DNA of 64,000 nucleotides from Martinezella rhizogenes (GTDB taxonomy: Bacteria > Pseudomonadota > Alphaproteobacteria > Rhizobiales > Rhizobiaceae), in assembly GCF_027460065.1 (NCBI RefSeq), contig NZ_JAPYZZ010000012.1, positions 1-64,000 of the forward strand. Direction: 5' to 3'. The position numbers and the translations under genes are program-made. The stretch's first letter is position 1, and every line of letters begins with the position of its first letter. This document shows, piece after piece, positions 34,224 to 62,232 of this stretch. The notes below the pieces were generated by a model. The model searched no databases and was not told the origin of the DNA. It saw nothing but the letters and a program-made list of their open reading frames with translations.

Positions 34224-34295
34224 CGTCATCCTCGGGCTTGACCCGAGGATCCACGGCCGCCGAAATGGATCCTCGGGTCAAGCCCGAGGATGACG
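34224..34295. repeat. REP-like inverted repeat, CCTCGGG-stem family, copy B1
   Basis: A 72-bp element with perfect 30-bp inverted arms. Each arm reads CGTCAT, CCTCGGG, loop CTTGA, CCCGAGG, ATCCA. The spacer is only ~12 bp. It sits between the SPOR gene and nagZ. Confidence 0.88.
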
Positions 34296-34383
34296 CGGAG
34301 AAATTAACCGGACCTCTCCGCAGTCTCGATGGCTAAAGGCCATTCTTCCCTTACCCCTTTTGTTCTCAGACAGGCGTGACACC

Positions 34384-35400
34384 ATGACCCATTGCAAAGC
34401 TATGATCCTCGGATGCAGCGGGCTTTCGCTGACTGCCGACGAGATCGCCCTTTACCGCGACGAGCAGCCCTGGGGTTTCATCCTGTTCGGCCGCAATATC
34501 GGCGAGCCGCAGCAGATCAGCGATCTCGTCGCATCCATGCGTGATGCCGTCGGGCGCCCAGACGCGCCGGTGCTGATCGATCAGGAAGGCGGGCGGGTTC
34601 AGCGCATCAAGCCGCCGATCCTGCAAGCCTATCCGAATGCCCGCATTCTCGGCGAAATCTACGAGCGAGACCGCGAGGAAGGCCTGCGCGCCGCCTGGCT
34701 GATGTCACGCCTGCATGCCTTTGACCTGATGAAATTCGGCATCAATGTCGATTGTCTGCCGGTGCTCGACGTGCCGGTGGAAGGCGCCAGCAACGTCATC
34801 GGCAACCGTGCCTATGGTTACACGCCGACCATGGTGGCGCAGATGGGCCAAGCGGCGGCCGACGGGCTGAAGGCGGGCGGCATGTTGCCTGTCATGAAGC
34901 ATATGCCGGGTCATGGTCGCGGCATGGTCGATTCGCATCACGAACTGCCTGTGGTCGATGTGCCGCTCGATGAGCTGGACGCCCATGATTTCGTGCCGTT
35001 CCGGGCACTGAAGCATGAATTGATGGCGATGAGCGCGCATCTGGTGTTCAACGCCGTTGACCGCGAGCGGCCGGCGACGACGTCGAGGAAGGTGATCGAG
35101 GAAATCATCCGTGGCCGCATCGGCTTTGACGGGCTGCTGATGTCCGACGACAGTTCCATGAATGCGCTGAAGGGCACACTTGGCGAACGGGCTGCGAATA
35201 TTGTTGCGGGTGGCTGCGATATAGTCTTGCATTGCAACGGCGTGATGAGTGAAATGCTTCAGGTCGTGAAGGAGGTTCCCGTTCTTTCCGGCCGTTCGCT
35301 GGAGCGGGTGCGGGCCGTGGAAGCGGGTTTCCCCGCCGCCGACCCGTCCGACGAGGCGGAGCTGAGAGCCGAATTCAACGCCATGTGGGCCGTTTCCTGA
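34384..35400 (+). CDS. nagZ: beta-N-acetylhexosaminidase NagZ
   Basis: A 338-residue GH3 enzyme that removes GlcNAc from 1,6-anhydromuropeptides during cytosolic peptidoglycan recycling. Substrate and catalytic motifs are IDQEGGRVQRIKPP, KHMPGHGRGMVDSHHELP (the mobile loop His-Asp dyad) and LLMSDDSSMNAL with the nucleophile Asp. Start at MTHCKAMILG (34384). It is followed 55 bp later by scpA. Confidence 0.94.
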   Translation: MTHCKAMILGCSGLSLTADEIALYRDEQPWGFILFGRNIGEPQQISDLVASMRDAVGRPDAPVLIDQEGGRVQRIKPPILQAYPNARILGEIYERDREEGLRAAWLMSRLHAFDLMKFGINVDCLPVLDVPVEGASNVIGNRAYGYTPTMVAQMGQAAADGLKAGGMLPVMKHMPGHGRGMVDSHHELPVVDVPLDELDAHDFVPFRALKHELMAMSAHLVFNAVDRERPATTSRKVIEEIIRGRIGFDGLLMSDDSSMNALKGTLGERAANIVAGGCDIVLHCNGVMSEMLQVVKEVPVLSGRSLERVRAVEAGFPAADPSDEAELRAEFNAMWAVS

Positions 35401-35455
35401 CAGTCGGGCGGCCGCTCACTCGGGATCACAGGCCGGATATCCGGCGGATGGAACA

Positions 35456-36304
35456 ATGGCCGCAGACAAGTCTCGCAATTCAACGCCGATGGACAAGCTC
35501 TGGCAGGATGTGACGCCGGAGCGGCTGACGGGCGAGGCCGGGCTGGTCATCGATGTCGCGGGTTTCGAAGGCCCACTCGATCTGCTGCTGCATCTTGCCC
35601 GCACCCAGAAGGTCGATCTGTCGCGCATTTCGGTACTGGCGCTTGCCGAACAATATCTGCAATTCGTTGAAAGCGCGCGGCGCGTGCGCATCGAGCTGGC
35701 CGCCGATTATCTGGTCATGGCGGCCTGGCTCGCCTTCCTCAAATCCAAACTGCTGATCCCGCAACAATCCAAGGATGACGGCCCCTCGGGTGAGGAAATG
35801 GCTGCGACGCTGGCCTTCCGGCTGAAACGCCTGGAAGCGATGCGCGAGGCGGCCGAAAGGCTCGTCAACCGCGCCCAGCTTGGCCGCGATGTTTTTGCCC
35901 GGGGTGCGCCGGAGCATATTCCACATATCAACCGTTCGGCCTATGAGGCCAACCTCTATGATCTCCTGAGCGCCTACGCCAATCTGCGCCAGCGGCAGGC
36001 CATAACCCAGGTCACCATTGAAAAACGGCAGGTCTGGTCGCTGGTGGAAGCGCGCGAGCTTCTCAACAGTCTCCTCGGAGATGTCGGTGAATGGACGGTG
36101 CTCGATCAATATCTGCTGCAATATGTGCCGGATCCCGCCATGCGGGTGACGGCGATCGCCAGCGCCTTTGCCGCCTCGCTGGAGCTGGTGCGCGAGGGAT
36201 CGCTGCAAATCCGGCAAGAGGGGGCTTTCCAGCCCATCTATATGCGCCGGGGCACAAGGGACGAGCGTGCAGCCCAAGCCGGGGAGACCGATAATGACAA
36301 ATGA
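35456..36304 (+). CDS. scpA: segregation and condensation protein A
   Basis: A 282-residue kleisin of the SMC-ScpAB condensin. The N-terminal FEGPLDLLLHLARTQKVDLSRISVLALAEQYL is the family signature that contacts the SMC neck. The C-terminal winged helix (SLLGDVGEWTVLDQYL) binds the SMC head. The end overlaps the scpB start by 11 bp, so the pair is coupled. Confidence 0.93.
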   Translation: MAADKSRNSTPMDKLWQDVTPERLTGEAGLVIDVAGFEGPLDLLLHLARTQKVDLSRISVLALAEQYLQFVESARRVRIELAADYLVMAAWLAFLKSKLLIPQQSKDDGPSGEEMAATLAFRLKRLEAMREAAERLVNRAQLGRDVFARGAPEHIPHINRSAYEANLYDLLSAYANLRQRQAITQVTIEKRQVWSLVEARELLNSLLGDVGEWTVLDQYLLQYVPDPAMRVTAIASAFAASLELVREGSLQIRQEGAFQPIYMRRGTRDERAAQAGETDNDK

Positions 36305-37028
36305 TGATGAGACCGGCGAGGCGATGATCGTGGCAGAGGGGGCGGCTCCCGAACCCACTGTTTTTTCTGAACGCCAGCTGAAGGAGGCCGAGCGGATCAC
36401 AGAAGCGCTGGTTTTTGCCTCGGCCGAGCCGGTTTCGATCGGTTTCATCGCCGAGCGTCTGCCGCGCGGCATGGATGTCGTCGCCATCCTGCACCGGCTG
36501 AAAGCCGCCTATGGCGAGCGTGGTGTCAATCTCGTGCAGGTTGGCGGGCAATGGGCCTTCCGCACGGCGGGCGACCTTTCCTTCGTCATCCGCACGGAGG
36601 AGAAAGAACCGAAGAAGCTGTCACGCGCAGCGCTGGAGGTTCTGGCGATTATAGCGTATCATCAACCGGTGACACGCGCCGAAATCGAGGAAATCCGCGG
36701 TGTGCAGACCTCGCGCGGCACGCTGGACGTACTGATGGAGGCGGGCTGGGTGCGGTTCCGGGGCCGCCGGCGCACGCCTGGCAGGCCGGTGACGATCGGC
36801 ACCACGGTGGAGTTTCTGGATCATTTCGGCCTTGAGGAATTGCGCGATCTGCCGGGCCTTGAGGAACTGAAGGGAGCGGGGCTGCTTTCGGGCCGAATCC
36901 CCTCCAATTTCGGTGTGCCTCTGCCGATGATGAGCGACGAGTTGCGCGAAGATGAAGACCCGATCACCCAGCTCGATCTGGAGGAACTGGGCCTGCTTGC
37001 GCCGGGTGGTGGCGATGGCGACGATTGA
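36294..37028 (+). CDS. scpB: segregation and condensation protein B
   Basis: A 244-residue ScpB with paired winged-helix domains: RQLKEAERITEALVFASAEPVS and SRAALEVLAIIAYHQPVTRAEIEEIRGV are diagnostic. It partners ScpA and SMC in chromosome compaction and segregation. The start ATG 36294 lies inside the scpA end. The tail (LDLEELGLLAPGGGDGDD) is acidic. tatA follows 130 bp later. Confidence 0.93.
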   Translation: MTNDDETGEAMIVAEGAAPEPTVFSERQLKEAERITEALVFASAEPVSIGFIAERLPRGMDVVAILHRLKAAYGERGVNLVQVGGQWAFRTAGDLSFVIRTEEKEPKKLSRAALEVLAIIAYHQPVTRAEIEEIRGVQTSRGTLDVLMEAGWVRFRGRRRTPGRPVTIGTTVEFLDHFGLEELRDLPGLEELKGAGLLSGRIPSNFGVPLPMMSDELREDEDPITQLDLEELGLLAPGGGDGDD

Positions 37029-37158
37029 TATCGTCATAGGCCTGCGTGATACACGCGAAAAGTTTATGGGCACGGCTCGTCTCAGCGACGATTTGTCGTT
37101 TGAAAAAGCCTTTCAAACGTCTTACATCGTCTGAAAGCGAAATTCAGGAGTTGCAGTT

Positions 37159-37371
37159 ATGGGTTCTTTTAGTGTGTGGCATTGGCTCATCGTGCTGGTG
37201 ATCGTTCTCGTGCTCTTCGGACGCGGCAAGATCCCCGAATTGATGGGTGATGTCGCCAAGGGCATCAAGAGCTTCAAGAAGGGCATGGCTGACGAAGACC
37301 AGACACCGCCGCCGGCCGATGTCAACGCGAATGCCAAGACTGTCGACCACAAGGCTGACGAGATCAAGTAA
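37159..37371 (+). CDS. tatA: Sec-independent translocase subunit TatA
   Basis: A 70-residue pore-forming Tat subunit: short N-terminal membrane helix ([15 protein letters not shown]), hinge [10 protein letters not shown], amphipathic helix ([14 protein letters not shown]) and acidic tail. It moves folded, twin-arginine cargo across the inner membrane with TatB and TatC encoded next. Confidence 0.96.
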
Positions 37372-37424
37372 GCGGCCTGTGCCGTTTGTTTTGAGACCGG
37401 CGCTAGGGTCTCGGGAGCGTATTG

Positions 37425-38165
37425 ATGTTTGATATCGGCTGGAGCGAGCTTCTGGTGATTGCGGTCGTTTTGATCGTGGTTGTCGGGCCGAAAGACTTGC
37501 CGCCCATGATCCGCGCCTTCGGCAAGACGATGGCCGGCCTTCGCAAGATGGCGGGAGATTTCCGCACCCAGTTCGATGAGGCCTTGAAAGAGGCCGACAT
37601 GGACGATGTGCGCCAGACCATCTCCGATGTCCGCAATCTCAACCCCACCAACTCGCTGCGCGATGCGATGAACCCGCTTCGCCAGCTCGGCAACGAGATC
37701 AAGTCCGATCTGCAGAAGGCGACGAGCCCTTCCGATGGGCTGTCGTCCACCGCAGCACCGGCCACGAGTGAGCCTGTTGCACCGCTGGTCAGCGTTCCCG
37801 AGCCGGATATGAAACTTCCGGATACGCCGCCAGTCGTCGCCGCAGCACCTGCTCCAGTTGCCGCAGCCGCGGTCGCGGCAGAGAAACCGAAGCGTGCACG
37901 GGCGAAATCGATTGCGACCGTCGAGGCCGAAGCGGTTGCCGCCAAGCCGAAACGTGTGAGCCGCAGCAAGGCGGCGGCAACGCCGGAAACCGCCGTTGCC
38001 GTCAAGGCCAGCGAACCCGCCGCCCCGAAGCCGACCGTGAAGGCCGTCGCCAAAAAGGCGGCAGTCAAGAAGCTCGCAGCCGAAAAGGCGGTGGCGGTGG
38101 CTGATGCAAAGCCGGCAAGAACGGCGAGAACCAAGGCTGCAAAGCCCAAAAAGGATGAAGCATGA
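37425..38165 (+). CDS. tatB: Sec-independent translocase subunit TatB
   Basis: About 246 residues. The N-terminal helix MFDIGWSELLVIAVVLIVVVGPKDLPPMIRAFGK is the TatB signature (Glu in the membrane helix, GPKDLP hinge). A long amphipathic helix and then an Ala/Lys/Pro-rich, histone-like tail (~120 residues) follow, longer than in enterobacteria but usual in rhizobia. TTG at 37422 directly precedes the ATG. It overlaps tatC by four bases (ATGA). Confidence 0.95.
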   Translation: MFDIGWSELLVIAVVLIVVVGPKDLPPMIRAFGKTMAGLRKMAGDFRTQFDEALKEADMDDVRQTISDVRNLNPTNSLRDAMNPLRQLGNEIKSDLQKATSPSDGLSSTAAPATSEPVAPLVSVPEPDMKLPDTPPVVAAAPAPVAAAAVAAEKPKRARAKSIATVEAEAVAAKPKRVSRSKAAATPETAVAVKASEPAAPKPTVKAVAKKAAVKKLAAEKAVAVADAKPARTARTKAAKPKKDEA

Positions 38166-38965
38166 GCGGGGACACCGAAGATAAGCCGCAGCCGCTTATC
38201 GAGCACCTCATGGAGTTGCGTACCCGGCTGATCTGGGCGCTCGGCGCGTTCTTCATCGCCTTCATCGGCTGTTTCGCCGTTGCCAAGCATCTCTTCAACC
38301 TGCTCGTCATTCCCTATAAGTGGGCAGTCATCTGGGCGGGGCTGGATGTGGCGAAATCGTCGCTGATCTACACCGCGCCGCAGGAATTCTTCTTCACGCA
38401 GATCAAGGTCGCGATGTTCGGCGCCATGGTCATCTCCTTTCCGGTGATCGCCTCGCAGCTCTATAAATTCGTTGCGCCGGGCCTCTACAAGAACGAACGC
38501 GCCGCCTTCCTGCCGTTCCTGATCGCTTCGCCGATCCTGTTCCTCATCGGTGCGGCACTCGTTTATTTCTTCTTCACGCCCATGGTCATGTGGTTCTTCC
38601 TCGCCATGCAGCAATTGCCTGTTGATGGCGAGGTGGCGATTTCGCTGATGCCGAAGGTGTCGGAATATCTCAGCCTCATCATGACGCTGGTTCTGTCCTT
38701 CGGCCTGGTGTTCCAGCTACCGGTCGTCACCACGCTTCTGGCGCGCGTCGGGCTTCTGACCAGCGACTGGCTCAGGGAAAAGCGCAAATTCGCCATCGTC
38801 ATGGCCTTTGTGGTCGCGGCCGTGCTGACGCCGCCGGACCCCATGTCCCAGATCGGTCTTGCGCTGCCCGCGATCATTCTCTACGAGATTTCCATCTACA
38901 TGGCTCGACTCGTGGAGAGGAAACGTGCGGCGGAATCCAAAAGCACGGAGCTGGAAGAGACCTGA
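38162..38965 (+). CDS. tatC: Sec-independent translocase subunit TatC
   Basis: A 267-residue receptor of the Tat system with six membrane helices. The N-terminal PLIEHLMELRTRLIWAL is the twin-arginine signal-binding region (conserved Glu). SPILFLIGAALVYFFFTPMVM and the late LTPPDPMSQIGLALPAIILYE are signature stretches. It is coupled to tatB by an ATGA overlap. Confidence 0.97.
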   Translation: MSGDTEDKPQPLIEHLMELRTRLIWALGAFFIAFIGCFAVAKHLFNLLVIPYKWAVIWAGLDVAKSSLIYTAPQEFFFTQIKVAMFGAMVISFPVIASQLYKFVAPGLYKNERAAFLPFLIASPILFLIGAALVYFFFTPMVMWFFLAMQQLPVDGEVAISLMPKVSEYLSLIMTLVLSFGLVFQLPVVTTLLARVGLLTSDWLREKRKFAIVMAFVVAAVLTPPDPMSQIGLALPAIILYEISIYMARLVERKRAAESKSTELEET

Positions 38966-39064
38966 TTTTTCTGAAGGTCTCACCGCTCAAAAAATCCTCG
39001 CGCCGGGTTCATGCCCGGCGTTTTGCTGTAAAACGCGACGATGCAACAACGGTCTGGAACGACG

Positions 39065-40348
39065 ATGCACGACATTAAATGGATACGCGAAAACCCCGAA
39101 GCTTTTGATGCAGCCCTTGCAAGACGCAGCGTGGAGCCCGCTGCGGCAGGTCTGATCGCTCTCGATGAAAAGCGCCGTTCCGTCATCCAGTCCCTGCAGG
39201 ACATGCAATCCCGCCGCAATGCCGCCTCCAAGGAAATCGGCGCCGCCATGGCGCAGAAGAACATGGAACTGGCGGAAAAACTGAAGGCAGAAGTCGCCGA
39301 CATCAAGGAAAACATGCCGCGCGCCGAGGAGGAGGACCGTCAGGTCACCGCCGAGCTGAACGACGCCCTGTCGCGCCTGCCGAACATGCCCTTCGACGAT
39401 GTGCCTGACGGCAAGGACGAGCATGACAATGTGGTGACCCGCGTCACCGGCCAGAAGCCCGGCTGGAACCACGCGGCCAAGGAACACTTCGAGATTGGTG
39501 AAGCGCTTGGCTACATGGATTTCGAGCGGGCCGCCAAGCTCTCCGGTTCGCGTTTCACAGTGCTGACCAGCCAGCTGGCGCGTCTGGAGCGGGCGCTCGG
39601 CCAGTTCATGATCGATCTGCACACCCGCGAGCACGGCTATACCGAAGTCTCTTCGCCGCTGATGGTGCGTGACGAGGCGATGTTCGGCACCGGGCAATTG
39701 CCGAAATTCGCCGAGGACCTGTTCAGGACCACCGATGGCCGCTGGCTGATCCCGACGGCGGAAGTGACGTTGACCAACCTCGTATCGGGCGAAATTCTCG
39801 AGCAGGAAAAACTGCCGCTGCGCTTCACGGCGCTCACGCCTTCCTTCCGTTCGGAAGCGGGCTCGGCTGGCCGCGACACGCGCGGCATGCTGCGCCAGCA
39901 CCAGTTTTGGAAGTGCGAGCTTGTCTCCATTACCGATGCGGAAAGTGCCGTTGCCGAACATGAGCGCATGACGGCCTGCGCCGAAGAAGTGCTGAAGCGT
40001 CTGGGCTTACATTTCCGCACCCTGACGCTCTGCACCGGCGATATGGGCTTCAGCGCCCGCAAGACTTACGATCTGGAAGTGTGGCTGCCCGGCCAGAACA
40101 CCTATCGCGAGATTTCCTCCTGCTCGGTCTGCAGCGATTTCCAGGCGCGGCGCATGAATGCGCGTTATCGCGGCAAGGACGACAAGGCGACGAAGTTCGT
40201 GCATACGCTGAACGGCTCCGGCACCGCCGTCGGCCGCTGCCTGATCGCCGTTCTCGAAAATTACCTGAACGACGACGGTTCCGTCACAATTCCGGACGTG
40301 CTGCTGCCGTATATGGGCGGTCTGACGCGGATCGAGAAGGCGGCTTGA
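39065..40348 (+). CDS. serS: seryl-tRNA synthetase
   Basis: A 427-residue class II synthetase. The N-terminal coiled-coil arm (residues ~25-110) grips the long variable arm of tRNA-Ser. Motif 2 is [21 protein letters not shown], written here as [11 protein letters not shown] and RGMLRQHQF; motif 3 is [17 protein letters not shown]. The start [10 protein letters not shown] at 39065 matches the family; the frame is open eight codons further upstream. Confidence 0.97.
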
Positions 40349-40397
40349 GAGAGCGCGGCGTCGTGCTATTGGAATGAGAGTCTGCCAATTACGCCGA

Positions 40398-40484
40398 CGT
40401 CATCCTCGGGCCTGTCCCGAGGATCTGCAACCTGTCGATTTATTGAGACGTGATTAGATCCTCGGGACAGGCCCGAGGATGACG
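40398..40484. repeat. REP-like inverted repeat, CCTCGGG-stem family, copy B2
   Basis: An 87-bp element. Each arm reads CGTCAT, CCTCGGG, loop CCTGT, CCCGAGG, ATCT. The loop change T to C is mirrored in the other arm. Spacer ~28 bp. It lies between serS and surE. Confidence 0.88.
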
Positions 40485-40560
40485 TTGAGAGAACTGCACA
40501 CTTCACCGCCGGAGGAGAGGATGCTCCGTCCCTGAAGACATAAAGAGCGGAGAGAGAAAT

Positions 40561-41331
40561 ATGCGGATTTTGCTGACCAATGACGACGGTATCCACGCCG
40601 AAGGGCTGGCGGTGCTGGAGCGTATCGCCCGCACGCTGTCCGACGATGTCTGGATCGTTGCGCCGGAAACCGACCAGAGCGGCCTCGCACACTCCCTGAC
40701 GCTCTCCGAGCCACTGCGGCTGCGCAAGGTTTCCGACAAGCATTTCGCGCTGCGTGGCACGCCGACCGATTGCGTCATCATGGGCATTCGTGAAGTCCTA
40801 CCGGAAAAGCCCGACCTCGTGCTGTCAGGCGTCAATGCCGGTGCCAACATGGCCGATGACGTGACCTATTCCGGCACCATTGCCGGCGCCATCGAAGGCA
40901 CGTTGCAGGGCGTGCGTTCCTTTGCGCTCAGCCAGGCCTTCAGCCACGGCGAAGGCCGTGTCGTGCCGTGGGAGGTTGCCGAGACCTATGCGCCGGATCT
41001 TTTGCGCAAGTTGATGAATGTCGATCTGCCTGACGGCACCTTTCTCAACCTCAATTTCCCCAATTGTGCGCCAAAGGATGTGCAGGGCGTGTCCGTCACT
41101 GGCCAGGGCAAGCTCGATTTCGGCCTGACGGTGGAGGAACGCCAGGATGGTCGTGGTCTTCCTTATTACTGGCTGCGCTTCGGCGAGCGCCTCGGCACCT
41201 TCCGCGAGGGCACGGATATCCACGCTTTGAAGCACGGCAAGATTTCGGTCACACCGCTTAAGCTTGACCTGACGGACTACACGGTCAAGGATCGGGTTGC
41301 GCAAGCGCTTGGATTCGGAGTCGCCGATTGA
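40561..41331 (+). CDS. surE: 5'/3'-nucleotidase SurE
   Basis: A 256-residue metal-dependent nucleoside-monophosphate phosphatase linked to stationary survival. The Asp pair for the metal is in [24 protein letters not shown] and [19 protein letters not shown] are family motifs. A good ribosome site (GGAGAGAG) precedes the ATG. The TGA stop overlaps the TTG start of pcm (ATTGA). Confidence 0.96.
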
Positions 41332-41981
41332 AATCTGCCATGGTCGAAAAGGAAGGTTTTGCCGCTCTCGTTCTCCGCCTGCGGGGCGAGGGGATTTCCG
41401 ATCTCGACCTGTTGACGGCGGTTGAGCAGACGCCGCGTTCCAAATTCGTGCCGCCGCAATTTGCGGCCGACGCCTATTCCAGCCGCACGATCCCGATCGA
41501 CTGCGGCGCCTTCATGGAAGGCGCCGATATGGCGGTGAAAATCCTTGCCCGCCTGCAACTGAAGCCCGGCCAGCGCGTGCTTGAGATCGGCACCGGCAGC
41601 GGTTTCATGACGGCGATCATTGCGCGCCGGGTGGAGCGCGTCTTTTCGCTGGAGCGTTACAAGACGCTGGTGCAGCAGGCGCAGAACTGCCTCGACGATC
41701 TTTCCATCCGCAACGTCGTCATCCGCCAGGCGGATGGCAGCAATGGTCTGGTGGGTGAGGGTACTTTCGACCGGATTGTTTCCACCGCTGCTTTCACCAC
41801 CATGCCGCGCTTCTTTGCCGAGCAGATCGTTTCCGGCGGCATGATGATCGCGCCGATCATCCTGGACGATGATCGCTGCGTTATGACGCGCTTCTCCAAG
41901 ACCGGCAGCCGCTTCGAGAAGGAAGAGCTGTTCGAGACGCCGTATCTGCCACTCGGCAGCCATATTGCCCGGCATTTGTGA
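41328..41981 (+). CDS. pcm: protein-L-isoaspartate O-methyltransferase
   Basis: A 217-residue SAM-dependent repair enzyme that methylates isoaspartyl residues of aged proteins. Motif I is [14 protein letters not shown]. The N-terminal [26 protein letters not shown] carries the PCMT signature region. The TTG at 41328 overlaps the surE stop and has GGAG well spaced; ATG 41340 would shorten it by four residues. The surE-pcm-nlpD order parallels that of enterobacteria. Confidence 0.93.
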
Positions 41982-42281
41982 CGAAATGAAAATTTTGAAG
42001 GCAATTCATTTTTGTCTTCTAATGTTCTGATTTGCCGCAACTATCTGATTTTCAATATCATTATTGTCTTGTCATGACGCATCCAGTTTTCGTCATGGTT
42101 ATCGAAGTGTCAAAAAAGCACTGAGCGGCTTAACGTTTTAACGGCGTGGTAACACTAACGCGCTTTAATCATAAACATCGACGCATGGTTTTTCCCATCA
42201 GGGGAAATGGGCCTTGCAAGAAATGAAATTTGTGCCGGATCGATCTCGATGCGGCGCGTTGGCGTCAGTGTAGATCGAGTC

Positions 42282-43895: not shown

Positions 43896-43920
43896 GTATT
43901 GCGTTCTCAAGGAATGATGA

Positions 43921-43946
43921 AGCCGGGTGATGAGCCCGGCTTTTTC
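43921..43946 (+). terminator. intrinsic terminator after the NlpD-like gene
   Basis: A 7-bp perfect stem (AGCCGGG and CCCGGCT), loop TGATGAG, followed by TTTT, 25 bp beyond the stop. Confidence 0.85.
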
Positions 43947-44020
43947 ATTTTGGGTGGTAGGTACACTGCCGTTGGAGTAGGTGCGGCTGGGAGAGGTCGA
44001 GTATTCGCAAACCTCTCGAT

Positions 44021-44107
44021 CGTCATGCTCGGGCCTGTCCCGAGCATCTGCTACGTCTCAATTATATGAGAGGTTGGCAGATCCTCGGCACAGGGCCGAG
44101 GATGACG
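44021..44107. repeat. REP-like inverted repeat, CCTCGGG-stem family, degenerate copy B3
   Basis: Left arm: CGTCAT, GCTCGGG, loop CCTGT, CCCGAGC, ATCTG. Right arm on the minus strand: CGTCAT, CCTCGGC, CCTGT-like loop, GCCGAGG, ATCTG. The two arms now differ, yet within each arm the stem is still fully paired because both sides of the stem changed. It lies between the NlpD-like gene and mobB. Confidence 0.82.
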
Positions 44108-44154
44108 TCACGCCGTGAGGCGAGCTTGTCACCCTCCCTTAGGCCAAAACGAAA

Positions 44155-44670
44155 TTACCGCTTCACCAACCCGACCGTCCTCTCGATAAAGTCCGCAATT
44201 TTCGCGGTATCATCGAGATCGAAAACGGGCAGAGCATTATCCGCCACCACATGATCGGCGGCAATTGCGATGATATGCGGATCGAGCGGCGCAAGCGGTT
44301 CGGTTTTCATCGCTTCCAGCCGGCGCGCCTCGATCTTCGGCACCGGCTCGTATTTGTAACCTTCGATCAGCACCAGATCGCAGGGGGCGAGGCGGGAGAG
44401 GATGTCCTCGAAGGATGGCTCCGGTTCACCGCGCAACTCATGCATGATGGCAAAGCGGGTGCCGGAGACGATGGTGACCTCGTGGGCGCCCGCCTGACGG
44501 TGACGCCAGCTATCGGCGCCGACCTTGTCGATATCGAAATCATGATGGGCGTGCTTGATGGTGGAGACACGGTAGCCGCGCGCCGTCAGTTCGGTGACGA
44601 TGCGCACCGCAAGCCCGGTCTTGCCCGAGTTTTTCCAGCCGGCAATGCCGAAGACCTTCTGCTCGCTCAT
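44155..44670 (-). CDS. mobB: molybdopterin-guanine dinucleotide biosynthesis protein B
   Basis: A 171-residue P-loop GTP-binding protein. Walker A is [14 protein letters not shown], then [14 protein letters not shown] and [16 protein letters not shown]. It assists MobA in making the bis-MGD cofactor. It overlaps mobA by four bases (ATGA) and is the last gene of the leftward run. Confidence 0.93.
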
Positions 44671-46519: not shown

Positions 46520-46520
46520 G

Positions 46521-49207: not shown

Positions 49208-49214
49208 GCGCCTA

Positions 49215-49341
49215 CCTCCCTCATTCCTGTGCTTGTCACAGGAATCCAGCCGACGCACGTCCGTGCGGCGAAAAAGAGTCTTCTCCAGCCCAACGACTTG
49301 GGCTGACTGGATTCCTGTCACAAGCACAGGAATGAGGGAGG
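49215..49341. repeat. REP-like inverted repeat, TCCTGTG-stem family, copy A2
   Basis: A 127-bp element with ~37-bp arms. The right arm has one change (CTGTCACAAG for CTGTGACAAG). The spacer (GCCGCACGGACG-like part first, then GCCCAACGACTTGGGC) is inverted relative to A1. It lies between the DUF971 gene and the antiporter gene. Confidence 0.85.
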
Positions 49342-49495
49342 GAGCGCGGGACATCTGAAGCACCATGTCCCGGTAGCAACTAACCCGTTGAATCCTCGCT
49401 CTGTCCCCGACGAAAATCGTTTTCGCTTTTCACGCCGATGCGCTAGGAAGTGAGGGAGGGAACACCCTCGTATAATCAATTCAGCGGGGTGGCGT

Positions 49496-51965: not shown

Positions 51966-52022
51966 GGCATCAATTGCCGCACCAACAGGTTGGCACTTAA
52001 AGAGCATGCACTTGTGTCACCC

Positions 52023-52145
52023 CGCCCTCATTCCTGTGCTTGTCACAGGAATCCAGTCGCCGCGCGTCTGCGCGGCGGGAAGAGTCTCCTTAGCCCAAGG
52101 ACTTGGTCTGGCTGGATTCCTGTGACGAGCACAGGAATGAGGGCG
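52023..52145. repeat. REP-like inverted repeat, TCCTGTG-stem family, copy A3
   Basis: A 123-bp element. The arms are CGCCCTCAT, TCCTGTG, CTTGT, CACAGGA, ATCCAG, with one loop difference in the right arm (CTCGT). The spacer is in the same orientation as A2. It lies between the PPOX gene and dgcB, which converge. Confidence 0.85.
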
Positions 52146-52174
52146 TCAACGGAACGGCTGCTGCCCTCTAATTT

Positions 52175-53248: not shown

Positions 53249-53746
53249 GAAACTCCAGTGAGTCTGCTTATCGACTATGATTATTATTATACGAGCTGTT
53301 TTGGAAAGCTTAATTTATGGAAAACTAATTTCTGTTCCCTGAAATTTCTTTTTTGTCGATTTTTATCTTATTTAATTGATAATCATAAGTAATTTTCATT
53401 TTGTAGGATTTCCGTAGTTTTTGTCTCTACTGTTCGTCTTGGTGCCAGCATCGCATTTATTCTGTCAATCCCAATAACGGGATTCATCTGATTTATTTTG
53501 GCACAACAATATGGGAAGGTTTCCGGGTGACGGAAAGGGATGGCGCATTTTGAATTTGAGGAGACGACGCTTTCAGGTCGTTCTTTTTATCATTCGTGTC
53601 GAGATACAGGAATGTTACAGTTTTATCCGCGGTGTTCATGTCATGCGGAACGTGGTGAGTGCCTTTCTCTAAAGACGCGGCAACCATACGGTAAGATTTG
53701 GAAAAAGGGCCTGTTCATTGCGGGTCGAAATCTGGCCCGCTGACTG
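53249..53746. other. AT-rich gene-free region upstream of dgcB
   Basis: About 500 bp, clearly AT-richer than the flanks (notably 53260-53420). Short open frames on both strands (53493-53687 minus, 53540-53743 plus) lack ribosome sites and family features. It probably holds the dgcB promoter and leader. Confidence 0.5.
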
Positions 53747-54964: not shown

Positions 54965-55456
54965 TCAGCTCTCCTGCCGGCGAAAATCACCGGATTTGCC
55001 GCCGCTTTTTTCGAGCAGGCGGATATTGACGATTTCCATCGCCTTGTCGGCGGCTTTCGCCATGTCGTAGATCGTCAGGCAGGCGATGGAGACGGCGGTC
55101 AGCGCTTCCATTTCCACGCCGGTCTTGCCCGACAGTTTCACCATGGCCTCGACCCGCAGGCCGGGCAGGGTGGTGTCTTCGGTGATGTCCACCGCAACCT
55201 TGGTCAGCATCAGCGGGTGACAAAGCGGGATAAGATTGGCCGTCTGTTTGGCGGCCATAATGCCGGCCAACCGGGCGGTGCCGATGACATCGCCCTTCTT
55301 AGCGTTGCCGTCGCGGATGAGCGCCAGCGTCTCCGGCTTCATCTTCACGAAACCTTCGGCGACGGCGACACGGACCGTTTCGGCCTTGTCGCCGACATCG
55401 ACCATATGCGCTTCGCCGCTGGCATCGATATGGGTGAGCTTTTGGCCATCGCTCAT
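54965..55456 (-). CDS. moaC: cyclic pyranopterin monophosphate synthase MoaC
   Basis: A 163-residue enzyme that, after MoaA, forms cPMP. Conserved blocks are [34 protein letters not shown] and [26 protein letters not shown] (catalytic Lys and Asp). It begins 7 bp after trpC ends and abuts moeA. Confidence 0.96.
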
Positions 55457-55463
55457 TGGCGCA

Positions 55464-56279
55464 TTATTCCGCGGCCAGAATGCCGGACTGGCCGGTCAGC
55501 AGGGCCTTGGTCGCCGCCGTCACATCGTCCTTGCGCATCAGGCTTTCGCCGACGAGGAAGGTGCTGATGCCGCTTTTCTCGAGACGCTGGCAATCCTCGA
55601 AGGTGAAGATGCCGCTTTCGCCGACCAGCAGCTTGTCGGCCGGCACGAGGCCCGCCAGTTTCTCGCTGGTTTCGAGGCCGACTTCGAAGGTGCGCAGGTT
55701 GCGGTTGTTGATGCCGAGAAGCGGTGAGGCGAGTTTTAGCGCGCGTTCGGTTTCCTCTGCATCATGCACCTCGACCAGCACATCCATGCCGAGCGCAAAA
55801 GCCTCGTCCTCGAGGCGCTTCGCCTCGTCATCGGAGAGAGACGCCATGATGAGCAGGATGCAATCCGCACCCCAGGCGCGGGCTTCATGTACCTGATAGG
55901 TATCGAACATGAAATCCTTGCGCAGCGCCGGCAGAGCGCAGGCATTGCGGGCGGCGGTCAGGAATTCCGGCGCACCCTGAAAGCTCGGCGTATCCGTCAG
56001 GACCGAGAGGCAGGCGGCGCCACCCGCCTCGTAAGCGGCGGCCAGCGCCGGCGGGTCAAAATCGGGACGGATGAGGCCCTTTGAGGGGCTGGCCTTCTTG
56101 ATTTCGGCGATGAGGCCAAACTTGCCCTCGGCCTGCTTTGCCCGCAGCGCTTTATAGAAACCGCGCGGTGCGCTCTGGTCTGCGGCCATGGCCTTCAGAT
56201 CGGCCAGAGAAACACTGGCCTTGGCGGCGGCGATTTCCTCGCGCTTGTAAATCTCGATCTTCTTGAGAATGTCGCTCAT
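55464..56279 (-). CDS. trpC: indole-3-glycerol-phosphate synthase
   Basis: A 271-residue TIM-barrel of tryptophan synthesis. Catalytic and phosphate-binding motifs are [55 protein letters not shown] and [10 protein letters not shown]. It starts 10 bp after trpD ends; no fused TrpF. Confidence 0.96.
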
Positions 56280-56289
56280 GGTCTCGCTC

Positions 56290-57318
56290 TCATTCCTGCC
56301 CTGAATTGGCCTCGTTGGATACGACGACGAGACGGTCGAGTGCTGCGGCGGCCTTGCCGCTGTCGAGTGCGTCGCTGGCGATCGTCATCGCCTCTGTGAG
56401 CGTCTCCGCCTTGCCGGCAATGACCAGCGCCGCAGCAGCGTTGCACAGCGATATGTCACGATAGGCGTTGCGCTTGCCGGAGAGAACCTCGCGCAGCGCC
56501 GCTGCGTTGGCAATGCCATCGCCGCCCTTGAGGTCGTTCATCTGTGCCGGCTCGACACCGAAATCCTTCGGCGTCAGGTCGAAGGTGCGGATCTTGCCGT
56601 CTTCCAGCGCGGCCACATGGGTGACGCCCGTGGTGGTGACTTCATCCATGCCATCGCCGTGCACGACCCAGATGCTTTCCGAGCCGAGATCGCGCAGCAC
56701 TTCGGCAAGCGGCACCAGCCAGCGTGGCGAAAAGACGCCGAGCAATTGCCGTTTTGCGCCGGCGGGGTTGGAGAGCGGGCCGAGCAGGTTGAAGATGGTC
56801 CTTGTGCCGAGTTCGACCCGGCTCGGGCCGACATGGCGCATGGCGGAATGGTGCATCTGCGCGAACATGAAACCGAGGCCGGCCTCTGCGATGCAGCGGG
56901 CGATGAGATCGGGGCCGATATCGAGCCTCACGCCGAGCGCGGACAGCGCATCCGCCGTGCCGGATTTGGAGCTCAGCGCCCGGTTGCCGTGCTTGGCGAC
57001 CGGCAGGCCCGTGCCGGCGGTGATGATCGAGGCCAGCGTCGAGATGTTGTAGGTGCCGATGCCATCGCCGCCGGTTCCGACGATATCGATGGCATTGGCG
57101 GGGGCCGAAACCGGCAGCATGCGGGCACGCATGGAAGAAACCGCGCCGACGATTTCGTCGACCGTTTCGCCGCGCACACGCAGCGCCATCAGGAAACCGC
57201 CGATCTGCGACGGGGTGGCTTCGCCCGACATCAGAATATCGAAAGCCGTGCGCGCATCTTCGCGGTTCAGGCTTTCTCCGTTCGCGACCTTGGCGATCAG
57301 CGGCTTCAGTTCGGCCAT
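56290..57318 (-). CDS. trpD: anthranilate phosphoribosyltransferase
   Basis: A 342-residue enzyme of tryptophan synthesis using PRPP. The glycine-rich PRPP loop is [15 protein letters not shown], followed by [21 protein letters not shown] (anthranilate and metal site). First gene of trpDC-moaC-moeA; the ppiD-like gene ends 14 bp upstream, so a longer operon is likely. Confidence 0.96.
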
Positions 57319-57332
57319 GTCTCGCCCCCCGG

Positions 57333-59225
57333 TTAGAAACCGACCATCGCCTGATCGGCGAGGGCCTGGTTGATCGTCACACCATAATCATTCTGCAGAC
57401 GGTTGACCATCTGATCCAGCATGTCGTCGCCAGCGGCGCGGGCAATGGCGGCGAACTGCTGGTCGTCATTGGCAAGCGCATCGGCAGGTGCATTGGCGTC
57501 AACCGAGGTGACCTTGAAGAGGATACGGCTGGAACCGTCGGCATCGGCCGCGGTGCCGACAACGCCTTCGGCGCCCGAGAAGACGGCGGCGATGGTCTGG
57601 CGGCCAAAGATCGCGTCCTCGCTGGTGCGGCGCAGGCCGGATTTCTGCTCGACGGCAAGGCTCAGCTCACCGGCGACGGCTTCCAGCGTTTCGCCCTTCT
57701 CAACGCGGGCTTTCAGCTCGTCGGCCTTGGCGGCAAGCGCGGTGCGCTGCTGCTCTGCCGTCCAGTCGGCCACGACGTCATCGCGGACTTCGGCAAGCGT
57801 GCGGTCGCGGGCGGGGATGATCTGCTCGACGTCGAACCAGATATACCCTTCACGGCCGAGATTGATCGGCAGGGCGTCGGTGCTGGGTTCGGTCTTGAAC
57901 ACTTCCTGCGCCAGCTGCGGCGAGGGCAGGCCCTCAATCGCATCGCCCTTTTCATTGAGGCCGGCGGCATCGATGGCGTCAATGGTGACGGGCTTCAGGT
58001 TGAGCTGCTTGGCGGCATCGGCGAGCGAAGAACCACCGGCGCGCAGATCCTCGTAGCGATCATGCACATTGGTGATTTCTTCCGCGGCGGCGGCAGTGGC
58101 GAGGTCCTTGCGGATATCTTCCTTCGCTTCATCAAGCGTGCGGGTGGTTTCCGGCTTGATGCCGGTGACGCGCAGGAGGATCGGGCCGAAGGAGCCCTCA
58201 ACCACCGGCGATACGCCGCCATCCTTCTGGATGGCGAAGGCGGCATCGGCAATCGACTGGTCGGGGATGGTATCCTTGGTGAATTCACCGAGGGTGACAT
58301 CGGAGGCGGTCTTGCCCTGATCCTTCACCACCTGGTCATAGGTGGTGTTGCCGAGCCTGATCTGCTCGGCGGCAGCGGCGGCCATTTCCTTGTCCGGGAA
58401 GGTCAGCTGCTCCACGGTGCGGCGGCCGGCGGTGCGGAAGCTGTCCTTGTGGCTGTTATAATAATCGGCGATCTGCGCGTCCGTTACGGAAGCGGGCTCG
58501 GCGATATCGGACGGTTCCAGCTTCACATAGGTGAACTTTCGGAATTCCGGCGCGCGGTACTTCGACTTGTTGGTTTCGAACCAGGGCGTGAGCACGTCGT
58601 CGCCCGGTGCCTTCACCGGCGGGATGACGGCGTTGGAGAGAATGACGTAATCGACGGCGCGCTGTTCGTTGCGATACTGCTTCAGCGCATCCACCAGCAC
58701 CTGCGGTGCGGCAAAACCGTCGGAGACAGCTTCGACGATCTGGCTGCGGACGGCAACCTTGCTGCGTTCCTTGATATAGTCGTCTTCACGGAAGCCGGAA
58801 TTGCGCAGGCGCTCGCTGAAGAGATTACGGTCGAACTGGCCGTTGACCGACTTGAAGGCCGGGTCCTCGGCGATGAGGTTGGCGAGGCGGTTTTCCGAAA
58901 GGCCGAGATTCATCTTCGAGGCCAGTTCGTCAAGCGCCGCACCGGCCGCAAGCTGGCTGAACACCTGACGGTCGATGCCGAAGGCCTTGGCCTGCTCGGT
59001 CGTCAGCCTTGTACCGAACTGGCGGCTGAGATCGGAAACCTGGCGCTGATACGCAAGGCGGAATTCCTGCGGGCTGACCGTCTGGTCACCCACCGTCATG
59101 ACGGCGTGGGAATTGGCGGTGACAAGCGATGCGGAGACGCCCCAGACGCCAAACGAAACAACAAGCAGGAGAAGCAGCAACTTGGCTGCCATGGTTCGAG
59201 AAGCATTTCTCAGGGAATCGAGCAT
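57333..59225 (-). CDS. PpiD-like membrane-anchored periplasmic peptidyl-prolyl isomerase/chaperone
   Basis: A 630-residue protein. One N-terminal membrane helix ([21 protein letters not shown]) anchors it. A SurA_N-type chaperone region follows ([42 protein letters not shown]), then a parvulin-like region (~residues 260-360) and a C-terminal extension (to ~residue 580). It assists proteins leaving the Sec translocon. It heads the leftward trp/moa run. Confidence 0.9.
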
Positions 59226-59414
59226 CGTTATGCAAACCTCACAGGAACGTCGTCGCGGTTGCCGGCTGTGCGGCCCGCAACGTATCGGCGTTCCTTAAAT
59301 CAATCCAAACGGAAATTGAAGGGAATTTGCCTTGGAAAAACGGGGTTTTGAAAACGGTTGTGTGATTGGGGGCGTCGAAATGGAGGTGCTGGATGTATAT
59401 CGGCTGCCTCTACG

Positions 59415-59533
59415 CCCTCATTCCTGTGCTTGTCACAGGAAGCCAGCCAGCCCAAGTCCTTGGGCTGAAAGGACTCTCTCCGCCGCGCAGACGCGCGTCG
59501 GCTGGATTCCTGTGACAAGCACAGGAATGAGGG
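59415..59533. repeat. REP-like inverted repeat, TCCTGTG-stem family, copy A4
   Basis: A 119-bp element. The left arm has ATTCCTGTG, CTTGT, CACAGGAAG (one change), CCAG; the right arm is consensus. The spacer contains AGCCCAAGTCCTTGGGCT and is in the A1 orientation. It sits in the gene-free stretch 59226-59632 upstream of ppiD. Confidence 0.85.
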
Positions 59534-59632
59534 GTGGGTATCGCTGAGGAATTGGCAAAACAAAACCGCCCGGACATTCCAGGCGGCTGAAAAGAATCAT
59601 TCCTGCAACGGCCTGAAGCCGGTCTGCCGCGC

Positions 59633-59767
59633 TCAGAACGCGCGGTCGCGCCGGATCATCGCCTTGAATTCCTCGTCTTCCCGTCGCATCTCGGCGACGA
59701 CGGAGATCATTGACGTCACGAACATTACGCTGATCAGGGCCAGAAGCATCGTCAGAAATGTGAACAT
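59633..59767 (-). CDS. 44-residue single-span membrane protein, unknown
   Basis: MFTFLTMLLALISVMF, then VTSMISVVAEMRREDEE and FKAMIRRDRAF: a membrane helix followed by a charged, probably helical tail. GGAG is eight bases before the ATG. First of three tiny membrane genes on the same strand. No family recognised. Confidence 0.6.
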   Translation of the reverse strand: MFTFLTMLLALISVMFVTSMISVVAEMRREDEEFKAMIRRDRAF

Positions 59768-59808
59768 GATATCGTCTCCGGGAGTTTTGAGGAAATTCTC
59801 CCCGTTAC

Positions 59809-59988
59809 TCAGTAATAATTCATATACTGGTAACGGGCGGTCAGCTGCGGGTAGTCCGGTCCCTGGGTTTCAGGCTTCTGCTCATAAAGGCTAAACGTCG
59901 TTGCTACCATTGCGATAACCAGTACTGTCCAGGCGGTGCTGATGACGCTGATTTTCGCCGAAGTAGACTGTTTTTCTCTTACAAACAT
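59809..59988 (-). CDS. 59-residue single-span membrane protein, unknown
   Basis: From ATG 59988 (MFVREKQSTSAKISVI): basic N-terminus, helix STAWTVLVIAMVATTFSLY, then a Gln/Tyr-rich tail ending ARYQYMNYY. AAGGA precedes the start at good spacing. The frame extends to ATG 60033 without a ribosome site. No family recognised. Confidence 0.6.
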   Translation of the reverse strand: MFVREKQSTSAKISVISTAWTVLVIAMVATTFSLYEQKPETQGPDYPQLTARYQYMNYY

Positions 59989-60128
59989 CTGTCCGTTCCT
60001 TTGGTTTTTTATTAACGCACCATGTCTCGACATGTTCCGCGTTAACCGTAAAAATCGATTAGCATCGCCCCGGTGAAACTTCCTTGAATGGCTCGTTCAT
60101 CTGGCGTTCAGAAATCTGGCGAGGAGCG

Positions 60129-60197
60129 TCATTCGAGAAAAAGATACTCAGCTGCGAATGATGCGATGACCGAAAGGACGATCATGAAGGCCAGCAT
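60129..60197 (-). CDS. 22-residue membrane peptide, unknown
   Basis: MLAFMIVLSVIASFAAEYLF then LE: almost entirely one membrane helix. CCGGAG and an A-rich gap precede the ATG. Too short for homology; support is the ribosome site and similarity of context to the two tiny neighbours. Confidence 0.4.
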   Translation of the reverse strand: MLAFMIVLSVIASFAAEYLFLE

Positions 60198-60426
60198 TTT
60201 CAATTCTCCGGATGCTTAACGGGTGAGGGGCGTTTCGGTTTCCCGATGCTGTGCATTTAAACAAAATAGCTCTGAAACCGCCCTGAACGGTCCATTCATC
60301 GCGGGTTCACGGCACGGCCACGGTTATGCTGCACGGTTATAAAGTCTTGCGCCGCGTGGCTCTCCATGACAAAAGGCGGGCACATGAATGCCCAGCATCG
60401 AAGCGCGCCCACCATCTGAGAGCGAT

Positions 60427-60921
60427 ATGACGATTGCCTTTTATCCAGGATCATTCGATCCGATGACCAACGGACATCTGGATGTGCTTATCCAGGCGCT
60501 GAATGTGGCGTCGAAAGTCATCGTTGCCGTCGGTATCCATCCCGGAAAAGCGCCGCTGTTCAGCTTCGATGAGCGGGCGGCCCTGATAAAACAGGCGCTG
60601 ACCGAGCAGCTGCCAGATGCAGCGGCGCGCATGGAAGTGGTCTCCTTCGACAATCTCGTCGTCGATGCCGCCCGCCAGCATGGTGCGCATCTTTTGCTGC
60701 GCGGCCTGCGCGATGGCACCGATCTCGATTATGAAATGCAGATGGCCGGCATGAACCGCCAGATGGCGCCTGATATTCAGACCGTGTTCCTGCCCGCTGG
60801 CACCTCGTCGCGACCCATTACAGCCACATTGGTCCGGCAGATCGCCGCCATGGGCGGCAATGTCGACGCCTTCGTGCCGAAAGCCGTGCTTGAAGCCCTT
60901 AACGCCAAGCTGAAGCGCTGA
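60427..60921 (+). CDS. coaD: phosphopantetheine adenylyltransferase
   Basis: A 164-residue enzyme of coenzyme A synthesis (4'-phosphopantetheine + ATP to dephospho-CoA). Nucleotidyltransferase motifs are [16 protein letters not shown] (the TxGH site) and the [16 protein letters not shown] variant of ISSTxxR. Start MTIAFYPGS at 60427 gives the usual length. Confidence 0.96.
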
Positions 60922-60949
60922 CTTCAGCCTTACATTTGGAGCCAATCCG

Positions 60950-61519
60950 ATGAAACTCGTTCGATTTGCCTTTGCCGGCGCCCTGTTTGCCGGCGCGCTT
61001 GCCGCCAGCACCATCGCTTCGGCTGCCGAACTCCTAACCATACAGCTGAAGGACGGCCCTGTTGTCATCGAGCTTGCGCCCGATGTTGCGCCGAAGCACG
61101 TGGCGCAGATCGAAGCGCTGGCGAAAAAGGGCGCTTATGACAATGTGGCTTTCCACCGCGTCATTGATGGTTTCATGGCGCAGACCGGCGACGTGCAGTA
61201 CGGCAACATGGAGAAGGGTTTTAACGCCCAGCGCGCCGGAACCGGTGGTTCCGATATGGCCGATATCCCGGCCGAATTCTCCAAGAAGCCGTTCACGCGC
61301 GGCGTGGTCGGCATGGCGCGCTCCAGCGATCCGAATTCTGCCAACTCGCAATTCTTCATCATGTTTGCCGACGGTCCGTTCCTGAACGGTCAATATACCG
61401 TGGTCGGCAAGGTCGTGTCCGGCATGGAAGCCGTGGACAAGATCAAGCGCGGGCAGGGCAGCAACGGCGAAGTTTCCAACCCCGACCGGATGATCAAGGT
61501 CACCGTCGGCAAGAAGTAA
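60950..61519 (+). CDS. ppiA: periplasmic cyclophilin-type peptidyl-prolyl isomerase
   Basis: A 189-residue protein with a signal peptide (FAFAGALFAGALAASTIASAA, cut likely at SAA-EL). The cyclophilin core has NVAFHRVIDGFMAQTGD, GVVGMARSSDPNSANSQFFIMF and QYTVVGKVVSGMEAVDKI. It folds exported proteins. It lies 28 bp after coaD and 36 bp before a second cyclophilin gene, so an operon is likely. Confidence 0.92.
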   Translation: MKLVRFAFAGALFAGALAASTIASAAELLTIQLKDGPVVIELAPDVAPKHVAQIEALAKKGAYDNVAFHRVIDGFMAQTGDVQYGNMEKGFNAQRAGTGGSDMADIPAEFSKKPFTRGVVGMARSSDPNSANSQFFIMFADGPFLNGQYTVVGKVVSGMEAVDKIKRGQGSNGEVSNPDRMIKVTVGKK

Positions 61520-61555
61520 GGTAGGGCAATAGAGCCCGAACAGAGGAGAATAATC

Positions 61556-62065
61556 ATGGCCGAGATCAAGGATCCGGAAAACACCATCATCATGGAAACG
61601 ACGACCGGCAAGGTCGTGATCCAGCTGCTTCCGGAAGTTGCGCCGGGCCACGTCGCCCGCATCAAGGAACTGGTATCGGAAGGCGCTTATGATGGCGTTG
61701 TTTTCCACCGCGTCATCGAAGACTTCATGGCCCAGACCGGTGACGTGAAGTTCGGCAAGAAGGGTTCGGAAAGCTTCAACCCGGCCCGCGCCGGCATGGG
61801 CGGTTCTGAAAAGGAAGACCTGAAGGCTGAATTTTCCGCCATTCCGCATGTGCGCGGCACCTGCTCCATGGCCCGTTCGCAGAACCCGAACTCCGCCAAC
61901 TCTCAGTTCTTCATCTGCTTCACGGATTCCCCGTGGCTCAACAAGCAGTACACCGTTTGGGGCCAGGTCATCGAGGGCATGGAAGCCATCGACAAGGTCA
62001 AGCGCGGCGAGCCGGTGAAGGATCCCGATTCGATCGTTTCCATCAAGCTTGCTTCAGCGGCTTGA
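61556..62065 (+). CDS. ppiB: cytoplasmic cyclophilin-type peptidyl-prolyl isomerase
   Basis: A 169-residue cyclophilin without a signal peptide, closely similar in sequence to its neighbour (VVFHRVIEDFMAQTGD, SMARSQNPNSANSQFFICF, KQYTVWGQVIEGMEAIDKVKRG). The pair looks like a tandem duplication with one copy exported. AGAGGAG precedes the ATG. A G+C-rich hairpin at 62090-62113 follows but has a weak T-tract. Confidence 0.93.
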   Translation: MAEIKDPENTIIMETTTGKVVIQLLPEVAPGHVARIKELVSEGAYDGVVFHRVIEDFMAQTGDVKFGKKGSESFNPARAGMGGSEKEDLKAEFSAIPHVRGTCSMARSQNPNSANSQFFICFTDSPWLNKQYTVWGQVIEGMEAIDKVKRGEPVKDPDSIVSIKLASAA

Positions 62066-62145
62066 GAATAGCGTTTAAAGTGTTTACCCGCTCCGCAGGA
62101 AACTGCGGGGCGTTTCACATTGATGACAAGGGTGCCAACCTCTCA

Positions 62146-62232
62146 GACGTCATCCTCGGGCTTGTCCCGAGGATCTAACGATCCACAACGTCAACGTGGT
62201 TAGATCCTCGGGACAAGCCCGAGGATGACGTC
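62146..62232. repeat. REP-like inverted repeat, CCTCGGG-stem family, copy B4
   Basis: An 87-bp element with perfect 34-bp arms: GACGTCAT, CCTCGGG, loop CTTGT, CCCGAGG, ATCTAAC. Spacer ~19 bp. It lies between ppiB and queA. Confidence 0.88.

Follow-up and report, generated by a model that had tools for sequence, protein, structure and literature searches.

The window analysed here, a 64,000-nt stretch of contig NZ_JAPYZZ010000012.1, carries four head-to-head hairpin pairs (B1–B4) which, by their sequence features, are pairs of CGTC-tagged repetitive extragenic palindromic (REP) hairpins. We found that a short gene encoding a GIY-YIG nuclease is associated with inverted hairpins in this genome and in many other lineages, and we consider the doublets to be probably gene-less forms of hairpin-nuclease-hairpin elements, whose hairpins would be multiplied by the nuclease in trans. 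The 11 best relatives of the window's pcm, with 95–99% protein identity, are named Agrobacterium (nine) or Rhizobium (two), which makes the genome Agrobacterium-like; the genus counts below refer to 39 genomes, and L and G numbers are our labels for loci and genomes.

Tagged hairpins and their pairing

The four pairs are located at 34224–34295 (B1), 40398–40484 (B2, between serS and surE), 44021–44107 (B3, between a DipM/NlpD-like gene and mobB, convergent) and 62148–62230 (B4). Each hairpin is 28 nt long and built of CGTCAT, a 7-nt stem, a 5-nt loop, the second half of the stem and ATC; the CGTC tag is present in eight of eight window arms, as are the AT-started 7-bp stem and the 5-nt loop. 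The tail is CCA in class 2 (B1) and mostly CTG or CTA in class 1.

B1 left hairpin, 34224–34251 (+): CGTC tag outward, stem CCTCGGG, loop CTTGA, tail CCA; class 2
B1 right hairpin, 34268–34295 (−): stem and loop as in B1 left; a 16-nt spacer separates the arms
B2 arm A hairpin, 40398–40425 (+): stem CCTCGGG, loop CCTGT; class 1
B2 spacer, 40426–40456: asymmetric, TGCAACC...GACGTGATTA; right end common to 6/7 clade II nuclease elements (see below)
B2 arm B hairpin, 40457–40484 (−): stem CCTCGGG, loop CCTGT
B3 left hairpin, 44021–44048 (+): arm-A variant stem GCTCGGG/CCCGAGC, loop CCTGT
B3 right hairpin, 44080–44107 (−): arm-B variant stem CCTCGGC/GCCGAGG, loop CCTGT
B4 left hairpin, 62148–62175 (+): stem CCTCGGG, loop CTTGT; class 1 loop, short 27-nt spacer
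B4 right hairpin, 62203–62230 (−): stem CCTCGGG, loop CTTGT

In the own genome the hairpin pattern is matched exactly 93 times and the reversed pattern never, which excludes chance and agrees with the initial annotation in treating B1–B4 as real repeats; with up to three mismatches, 126 matches were found. For the bare 7-mer there is no clear enrichment in the window (20 copies versus 13.4 expected, 20 being reached in 9 of 100 shuffles). A stem-free pattern, in which only tag, loop and tail are fixed and all 14 stem bases are free, matched in 37 of the 39 genus genomes, 2119 times in total versus once for the reversed control (for G003, G013 and G032 the hairpins examined are those among the matches listed).

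Pairing was followed in 404 hairpins from six genomes, nearly all retrieved with the stem-free pattern; five of 409 matches resembled neither stem half and were dropped, and the own set of 109 comprises 103 hairpins from stretches fetched around elements and six others, three chance-like own matches not being entered. The tag served as the search anchor, so CGTC is present in the counted hairpins by construction. Stems are perfect in 343 of the 404 copies, and 2735 of 2828 stem pairs are of the Watson-Crick type, versus a mean of 2416 (standard deviation 9, maximum 2447) when the 3' halves are shuffled. Compensated non-consensus pairs number 180 versus a shuffle mean of 23.8 (standard deviation 4.6, maximum 38), a figure that does not stand for 180 events since the copies share descent. 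This excess of paired substitutions bears out the earlier proposal that the unit in which pairing is kept is the 7-bp hairpin, not the long palindrome. The compensated stem variants include GCTCGGG, CCTCGGC, CCTCGCC, CCTTGGG, CCTAGGG and GGTCGGG. Of the variant types counted by genome, 17 of 26 perfect ones, three of 23 that are wobble-only and two of 33 with mismatches are multi-copy; the stems that stay paired are those multiplied. In the six genomes G-T mismatches outnumber A-C ones on the CGTC strand (42 to 19, p 0.004); this was not repeated in two further genomes (3 to 5), and strand-asymmetric wobble was dropped as a mark of single-strand recognition.

The two 28-nt arms of B1, B2 and B4 are exact reverse complements. 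The earlier statement that every loop and flank change is present in both arms is not confirmed: the three doublets have identical stems and vary in their loops alone, and the outer flanks are not fully mirrored (CTCTA versus CTCCG in B1). The arms of B3 differ at four positions which form two compensated pairs (GCTCGGG/CCCGAGC left, CCTCGGC/GCCGAGG right), so each diverged arm is indeed still fully paired. B3 is, however, not the decaying copy it was thought to be, as both of its stems are multi-copy variants in the own genome, each specific for its side.

Of the 404 hairpins, 272 are paired in 136 head-to-head doublets, and 106 of these have two perfect stems (48 with identical stems, 45 consensus). 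Among doublets with T-ending loops a variant stem occurs in both arms in none of 58 (4.2 expected, p 0.0035), and among those with A-ending loops (class 2) in 3 of 41 (0.67 expected, p 0.012); for all doublets together the two effects cancel (3 mirrored variants versus 4.9 expected). Gene conversion between arms, suggested previously, is thus unsupported in the class of B2–B4, where stems are also side-specific; it may act in the class of B1, which shows some mirrored variants. The loops CTTGT and CCTGT pair as by chance (CCTGT homodimers 5 versus 5.3 expected, mixed doublets 31 versus 30.4), so that no special cause need be sought for mirrored loops in B2 and B4.

Class-1 doublets can be oriented by their asymmetric spacer (TGCAACC...GACGTGATTA). 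From 57 doublets found, 47 were used (37 own, 10 from relatives); five class-2 or other and five ambiguous ones (own B3 and L052, three of relatives) were left out. Among the 47 arms A, 27 have a GCT-starting stem and none has CCTCGGC; among the 47 arms B the corresponding counts are 1 and 13. All four arm combinations are present, and therefore copies recombine or mutate repeatedly, with the variants still keeping their side: in class 1 the arms are not made alike. The spacer of B3 is near-symmetric (score 20 versus 22), hence this doublet is uncounted; as read, it bears the arm-A variant on the left and the arm-B variant on the right, like L052.

The spacers of B1, B2 and B3 (34142–34400, 40349–40560 and 43896–44155) hold different palindrome families in related species. 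The B1 site is occupied by CTCGGG doublets in some relatives and by GCCGGA-type palindromes in L090, L092 and L097, and the B3 site by a class-2 doublet in L087 and L088. L094 carries the L087/L096 spacer in reverse complement at B1 and a flipped loop at B2, while in L088 B2 is collapsed to a single hairpin. The occupants therefore turn over and the sites stay in use; the orthologous spacers are too diverged for element ends or a target-site duplication to be read. Half-doublets with one end joined to a shared stretch with CCGGACAACAGTGG, resembling mosaics with a further repeat, occur in L010 (near 1072–1159) and L027 (near 1265–1352). The window also holds a 158-nt direct repeat (61054–61211 and 61606–61763), its copies lying 552 nt apart with 71% identity.

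A GIY-YIG nuclease gene between inverted hairpins

In the own genome (L040, with an odd hairpin order) a 94-aa GIY-YIG protein is encoded between urtD and urtE, as named by NCBIfam, inside a head-to-head hairpin pair. The protein matches PF01541 (E 3.5e-17; 62.9 bits, curated cut-off 22.6) and no NCBIfam family, and its nearest solved chain is, weakly, UPF0213 BH0048 (E 0.043). Residues Y6, Y17, G19, R27 and E64 are invariant in 10 aligned nuclease proteins; they include the catalytic Tyr, Arg and Glu of GIY-YIG nucleases, and catalytic activity is putative.

Relatives of the gene were found in 21 of the 39 genus genomes, at 34 places and at most three per genome. Thirty of these places were examined and fall into eight sites by their outer flanks (clade labels I–IV are our own). 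G022 and G023, the only two genus genomes without a hairpin match, also lack a GIY-YIG match, and in 16 further genomes the gene is absent and hairpins are present.

All seven clade I loci (urt site) lie beside class-2 hairpins, L126 being without a detected hairpin just downstream, and all seven clade II loci (sufB-sufC site, by translation) lie between head-to-head class-1 hairpins. The clade II elements have the 5' tails TGC (five) or TAC (two) and the 3' ends CGTGATTA (six) or CGGATTA (one), and the clade II protein is 113 aa long. Six of the seven end like B2, with whose right end four loci are identical for 23 nt, two for 38 nt and one for 18 nt; the 38 nt, found in L144 and L148, comprise B2 arm B and the final 10 spacer bases. 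Hairpin class and spacer end thus match between Agrobacterium nuclease elements and gene-less doublets. Other nuclease clades adjoin palindromes of the GCCGGA or the TCCTGTG type, and the TCCTGTG type is the second palindromic family of the window. Members of this family (CTCATTCCTGTGCTTGTCACAGGAATCC..., 128–133 nt) are situated at 49212–49344, 52019–52146 and 59412–59539, and palindromes of this kind stand beside another GIY-YIG clade in L133, L139, L140 and L150.

Genomes with clade I or II have a median of 75 hairpins versus 36 in those without (p 0.0096, with related genomes counted as independent). REP-associated tyrosine transposases (RAYTs) are ruled out as movers of the hairpins, as PF01797 was matched in none of the 39 genus genomes, the own one included (the control was matched in 5 of 14 known genomes).

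Our family-blind test compared the 200 nt upstream of a gene with the 250 nt downstream of it and scored the best inverted match, with a cut-off of 18 chosen after the genus values were known. The cut-off was reached at 26 of 30 genus loci, where inverted copies of a local palindrome enclose a nuclease gene of about 95 codons, and at 34 of 69 loci sampled evenly across the class, the own gene being among the 34. In that sample 124 of 289 genomes have the gene; 70 loci, nearly all one per genome, were examined and one was not scorable. None of 499 control genes from 38 Rhizobiaceae-type loci scored as high (0/210 in the Agrobacterium group; highest 15), nor did any of 67 distant windows of class loci (highest 13). 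The corresponding Fisher p values of 6e-31 and 1e-35 are overstated because the loci are related. Tagged head-to-head hairpins flank the gene on both sides at 17 of 30 genus and 17 of 70 class loci, versus 0 of 499 controls and 1 of 78 neighbouring ORFs (open reading frames) in the same class loci, and 20 of the 34 class loci have GTCAT or CTCAT at the outer end of the upstream copy.

G301, with 68 pattern matches, has one nuclease copy between GCCCGGG and CCCCGGG hairpins, and eight of its nine doublets are the same GCCCGGG/CCCCGGG hetero pair, the ninth having a mismatched arm. The five other genomes with the gene that were tried gave 33, 32, 14, 1 and 1 matches, and eight without it, not a random choice, gave none. 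One genome of the class, G161, has 12 GIY-YIG matches.

Named examples were drawn from 33 plasmid-collection records with the protein, 15 regions being read. The flank score is reached in nine: S. meliloti Ak57 pSymB (CP090106.1), Neorhizobium EC2-8, Shinella WSC3-e, Rhizobium CIAT894, Shinella PSBB067, Azospirillum lipoferum 4B (NC_016623.1, annotated sufB - GIY-YIG - sufC), Novosphingobium pNL2, Sphingobium TomMM7A and, outside Alphaproteobacteria, Neisseria gonorrhoeae (NZ_CP119140.1, L226), where a GIY-YIG frame has CGTC hairpins on both sides (CGTCATTCCCGC repeats). We take these Neisseria repeats to resemble dRS3. The sufB/sufC gap holds the nuclease gene both in Agrobacterium (L134, 1441–1955) and in Azospirillum lipoferum (L227, 655–1271), with different hairpins, which may reflect old inheritance or a reused site.

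Possible origins of the doublets

If the doublets derive from nuclease elements, the full element would be hairpin - GIY-YIG nuclease gene - hairpin, with B1–B4 as its gene-less form arising by gene loss. The two arms would be the left and right element ends, and class-1 arms would for this reason carry stem variants of their own. The copying machinery would recognize the folded, tagged hairpin, and hairpins would stay paired because copying favours compensated stems, broken-stem copies being seldom multiplied. Acting in trans, the nuclease would serve hairpins of its own class, in the way assumed for RAYTs and GTAG REPs. It is the architecture that suggests mobilisation by the nuclease, much as it first led to RAYTs being linked with REPs (PMC2817692). 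We consider this origin probable in view of the agreement between nuclease clade and hairpin class, the flanking repeats that control genes lack, the B2-like right ends of clade II elements, the hetero pairs of G301, the multi-copy state of perfect stem variants and the higher hairpin counts in genomes with clade I or II.

Several observations weigh against this origin. No movement of the element was observed, and in Agrobacterium every clade or sub-clade keeps to a single conserved site (8 sites in all for the 30 loci), for which reason the nuclease gene does not seem to be mobile now. Of 25 genus genomes in which neither clade I nor clade II is present, 23 still contain hairpins; the own genome has the clade I gene only, yet class-1 doublets are common in it; and the copy-number comparison (75 versus 36) is uncorrected for descent. 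In addition, 35 of 69 class loci are below the score, about half of the class sample having no flanking repeat. G041 and G042 gave one match each with the tried pattern, and the second nuclease copy of G301 lies between two like CCCCGGG hairpins. Six of the 15 named loci are below the score: Aeromonas (hairpins in direct order), R. tumorigenes, Planktothrix, Photobacterium, Spirosoma and Sinorhizobium C101 (gene end not resolved).

Some of these facts would suit a nuclease gene that is a passenger or homing gene settled in REP doublets as its targets, the repeats being spread otherwise. A single gene at conserved Agrobacterium sites and hairpins in genomes lacking clades I and II are in line with it, and GIY-YIG enzymes include homing endonucleases (PMC1564403, in the part available). 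Yet different nuclease clades accompany different hairpin families, copy number rises with the gene, and the gene is not seen at many doublets of one genome within the genus (at most three places), which makes this origin unlikely.

A role of the hairpins in RNA at gene ends (mRNA protection or termination), with pairing selected in the transcript, seems to us quite improbable. The 59 own elements or single hairpins lie between convergent ORFs in 19 cases, co-directional ORFs in 23 and divergent ORFs in five (eight lie in an ORF and four at a stretch end; ORFs called by length alone), a placement similar to that given for REPs in the available part of PMC3733652. However, the same bias is expected if insertions near promoters are lost, and an RNA role leaves the tags, the side-specific arms and the nuclease unexplained. 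The strand-biased mismatch signal was not repeated either, and Rfam at gathering thresholds reported only tRNA in the window, with no family at the hairpin sites.

Template switching within a hairpin at replication could generate paired changes without any selection on pairing, and the inverted B1 spacer and flipped B2 loop of L094, together with the collapsed B2 of L088, recall such events. Loop polarity is nearly fixed, however: 12 inverted-loop matches, two or three of them judged hairpins, were found in the 39 genomes versus the 2119 normal ones. Moreover, class-1 arms are not made alike, and perfect variants are multi-copy, which local mutation alone does not give, so we hold template switching as the sole cause to be very improbable; it may supply double changes that copying then spreads. 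The explanation of the initial annotation, by which gene conversion homogenises the arms of a long palindrome and B3 decays, can draw on the identical arms of B1, B2 and B4 and on the class-2 mirrored variants, but it is contradicted for class 1 by the common, side-specific B3-type stems and chance-level loops and is hardly credible.

Relation to known REP systems

In the 2013 survey of Di Nocera, De Gregorio and Rocco (PMC3733652), as far as its text was available, CGTC-tagged REPs have an unpaired end tag CGTC (or TGTC, CCTC), an AT-started stem of 8–9 bp, a loop of 4–5 nt and a tail that is mostly CCA; they form mainly head-to-head dimers and occur mainly in Alphaproteobacteria, A. tumefaciens and S. 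meliloti being listed. The window hairpins share with them the tag, the AT-started 9-bp stem, the 5-nt loop and the head-to-head dimers. Unlike the surveyed repeats, which are described without associated transposase genes and, for A. tumefaciens CGTC-3, as homodimers only, they form heterodoublets with side-specific stems and have a GIY-YIG gene between hairpins. The available text of the survey contains no mention of GIY-YIG and states that the heterodimer preference lacks an obvious explanation. Searches of the open-licence PMC literature, the scope on which novelty rests, found no paper that connects GIY-YIG genes with REPs; the accessible part of PMC9465073 uses both terms separately, in a gene table and the discussion of it.

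The nuclease belongs to the GIY-YIG superfamily by its PF01541 match and falls into no NCBIfam family (compare PMC1564403, in part). RIME1 of Rhizobium likewise represents intergenic palindromic mosaic repeats of Rhizobiaceae, a likeness by description (PMC2573895, in part). Closer parallels are offered by RAYT/REPtron systems and REPINs, which, in the parts of the papers available, have in common with the present elements a short nuclease gene between inverted REPs, single gene copies, many gene-less doublets and strand-specific tagged hairpins (PMC2817692, PMC8266576, PMC3116915). Yet RAYTs are Y1/HUH enzymes with GTAG repeats, whereas here a GIY-YIG gene accompanies CGTC-type hairpins in genomes without PF01797.

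What moves the widespread CGTC REPs, and why many of their dimers are hetero, was left open in 2013, and the nuclease provides a concrete enzyme to test. We tentatively propose that CGTC REPs might be the ends of a class of mobile elements in which a small GIY-YIG nuclease recognizes the tagged hairpins and, in trans, multiplies doublets that lack the gene, as a counterpart of RAYTs and GTAG REPs; heterodoublets would then be pairs of left and right ends, which would explain their unlike arms, and the enzyme could be one unrelated to HUH, DDE, serine or tyrosine recombinases. The presence across Alphaproteobacteria and the one Neisseria case with dRS3-like repeats suggest an ancient class. If this holds true, REP-like repeats have been built at least twice, by unrelated nucleases.

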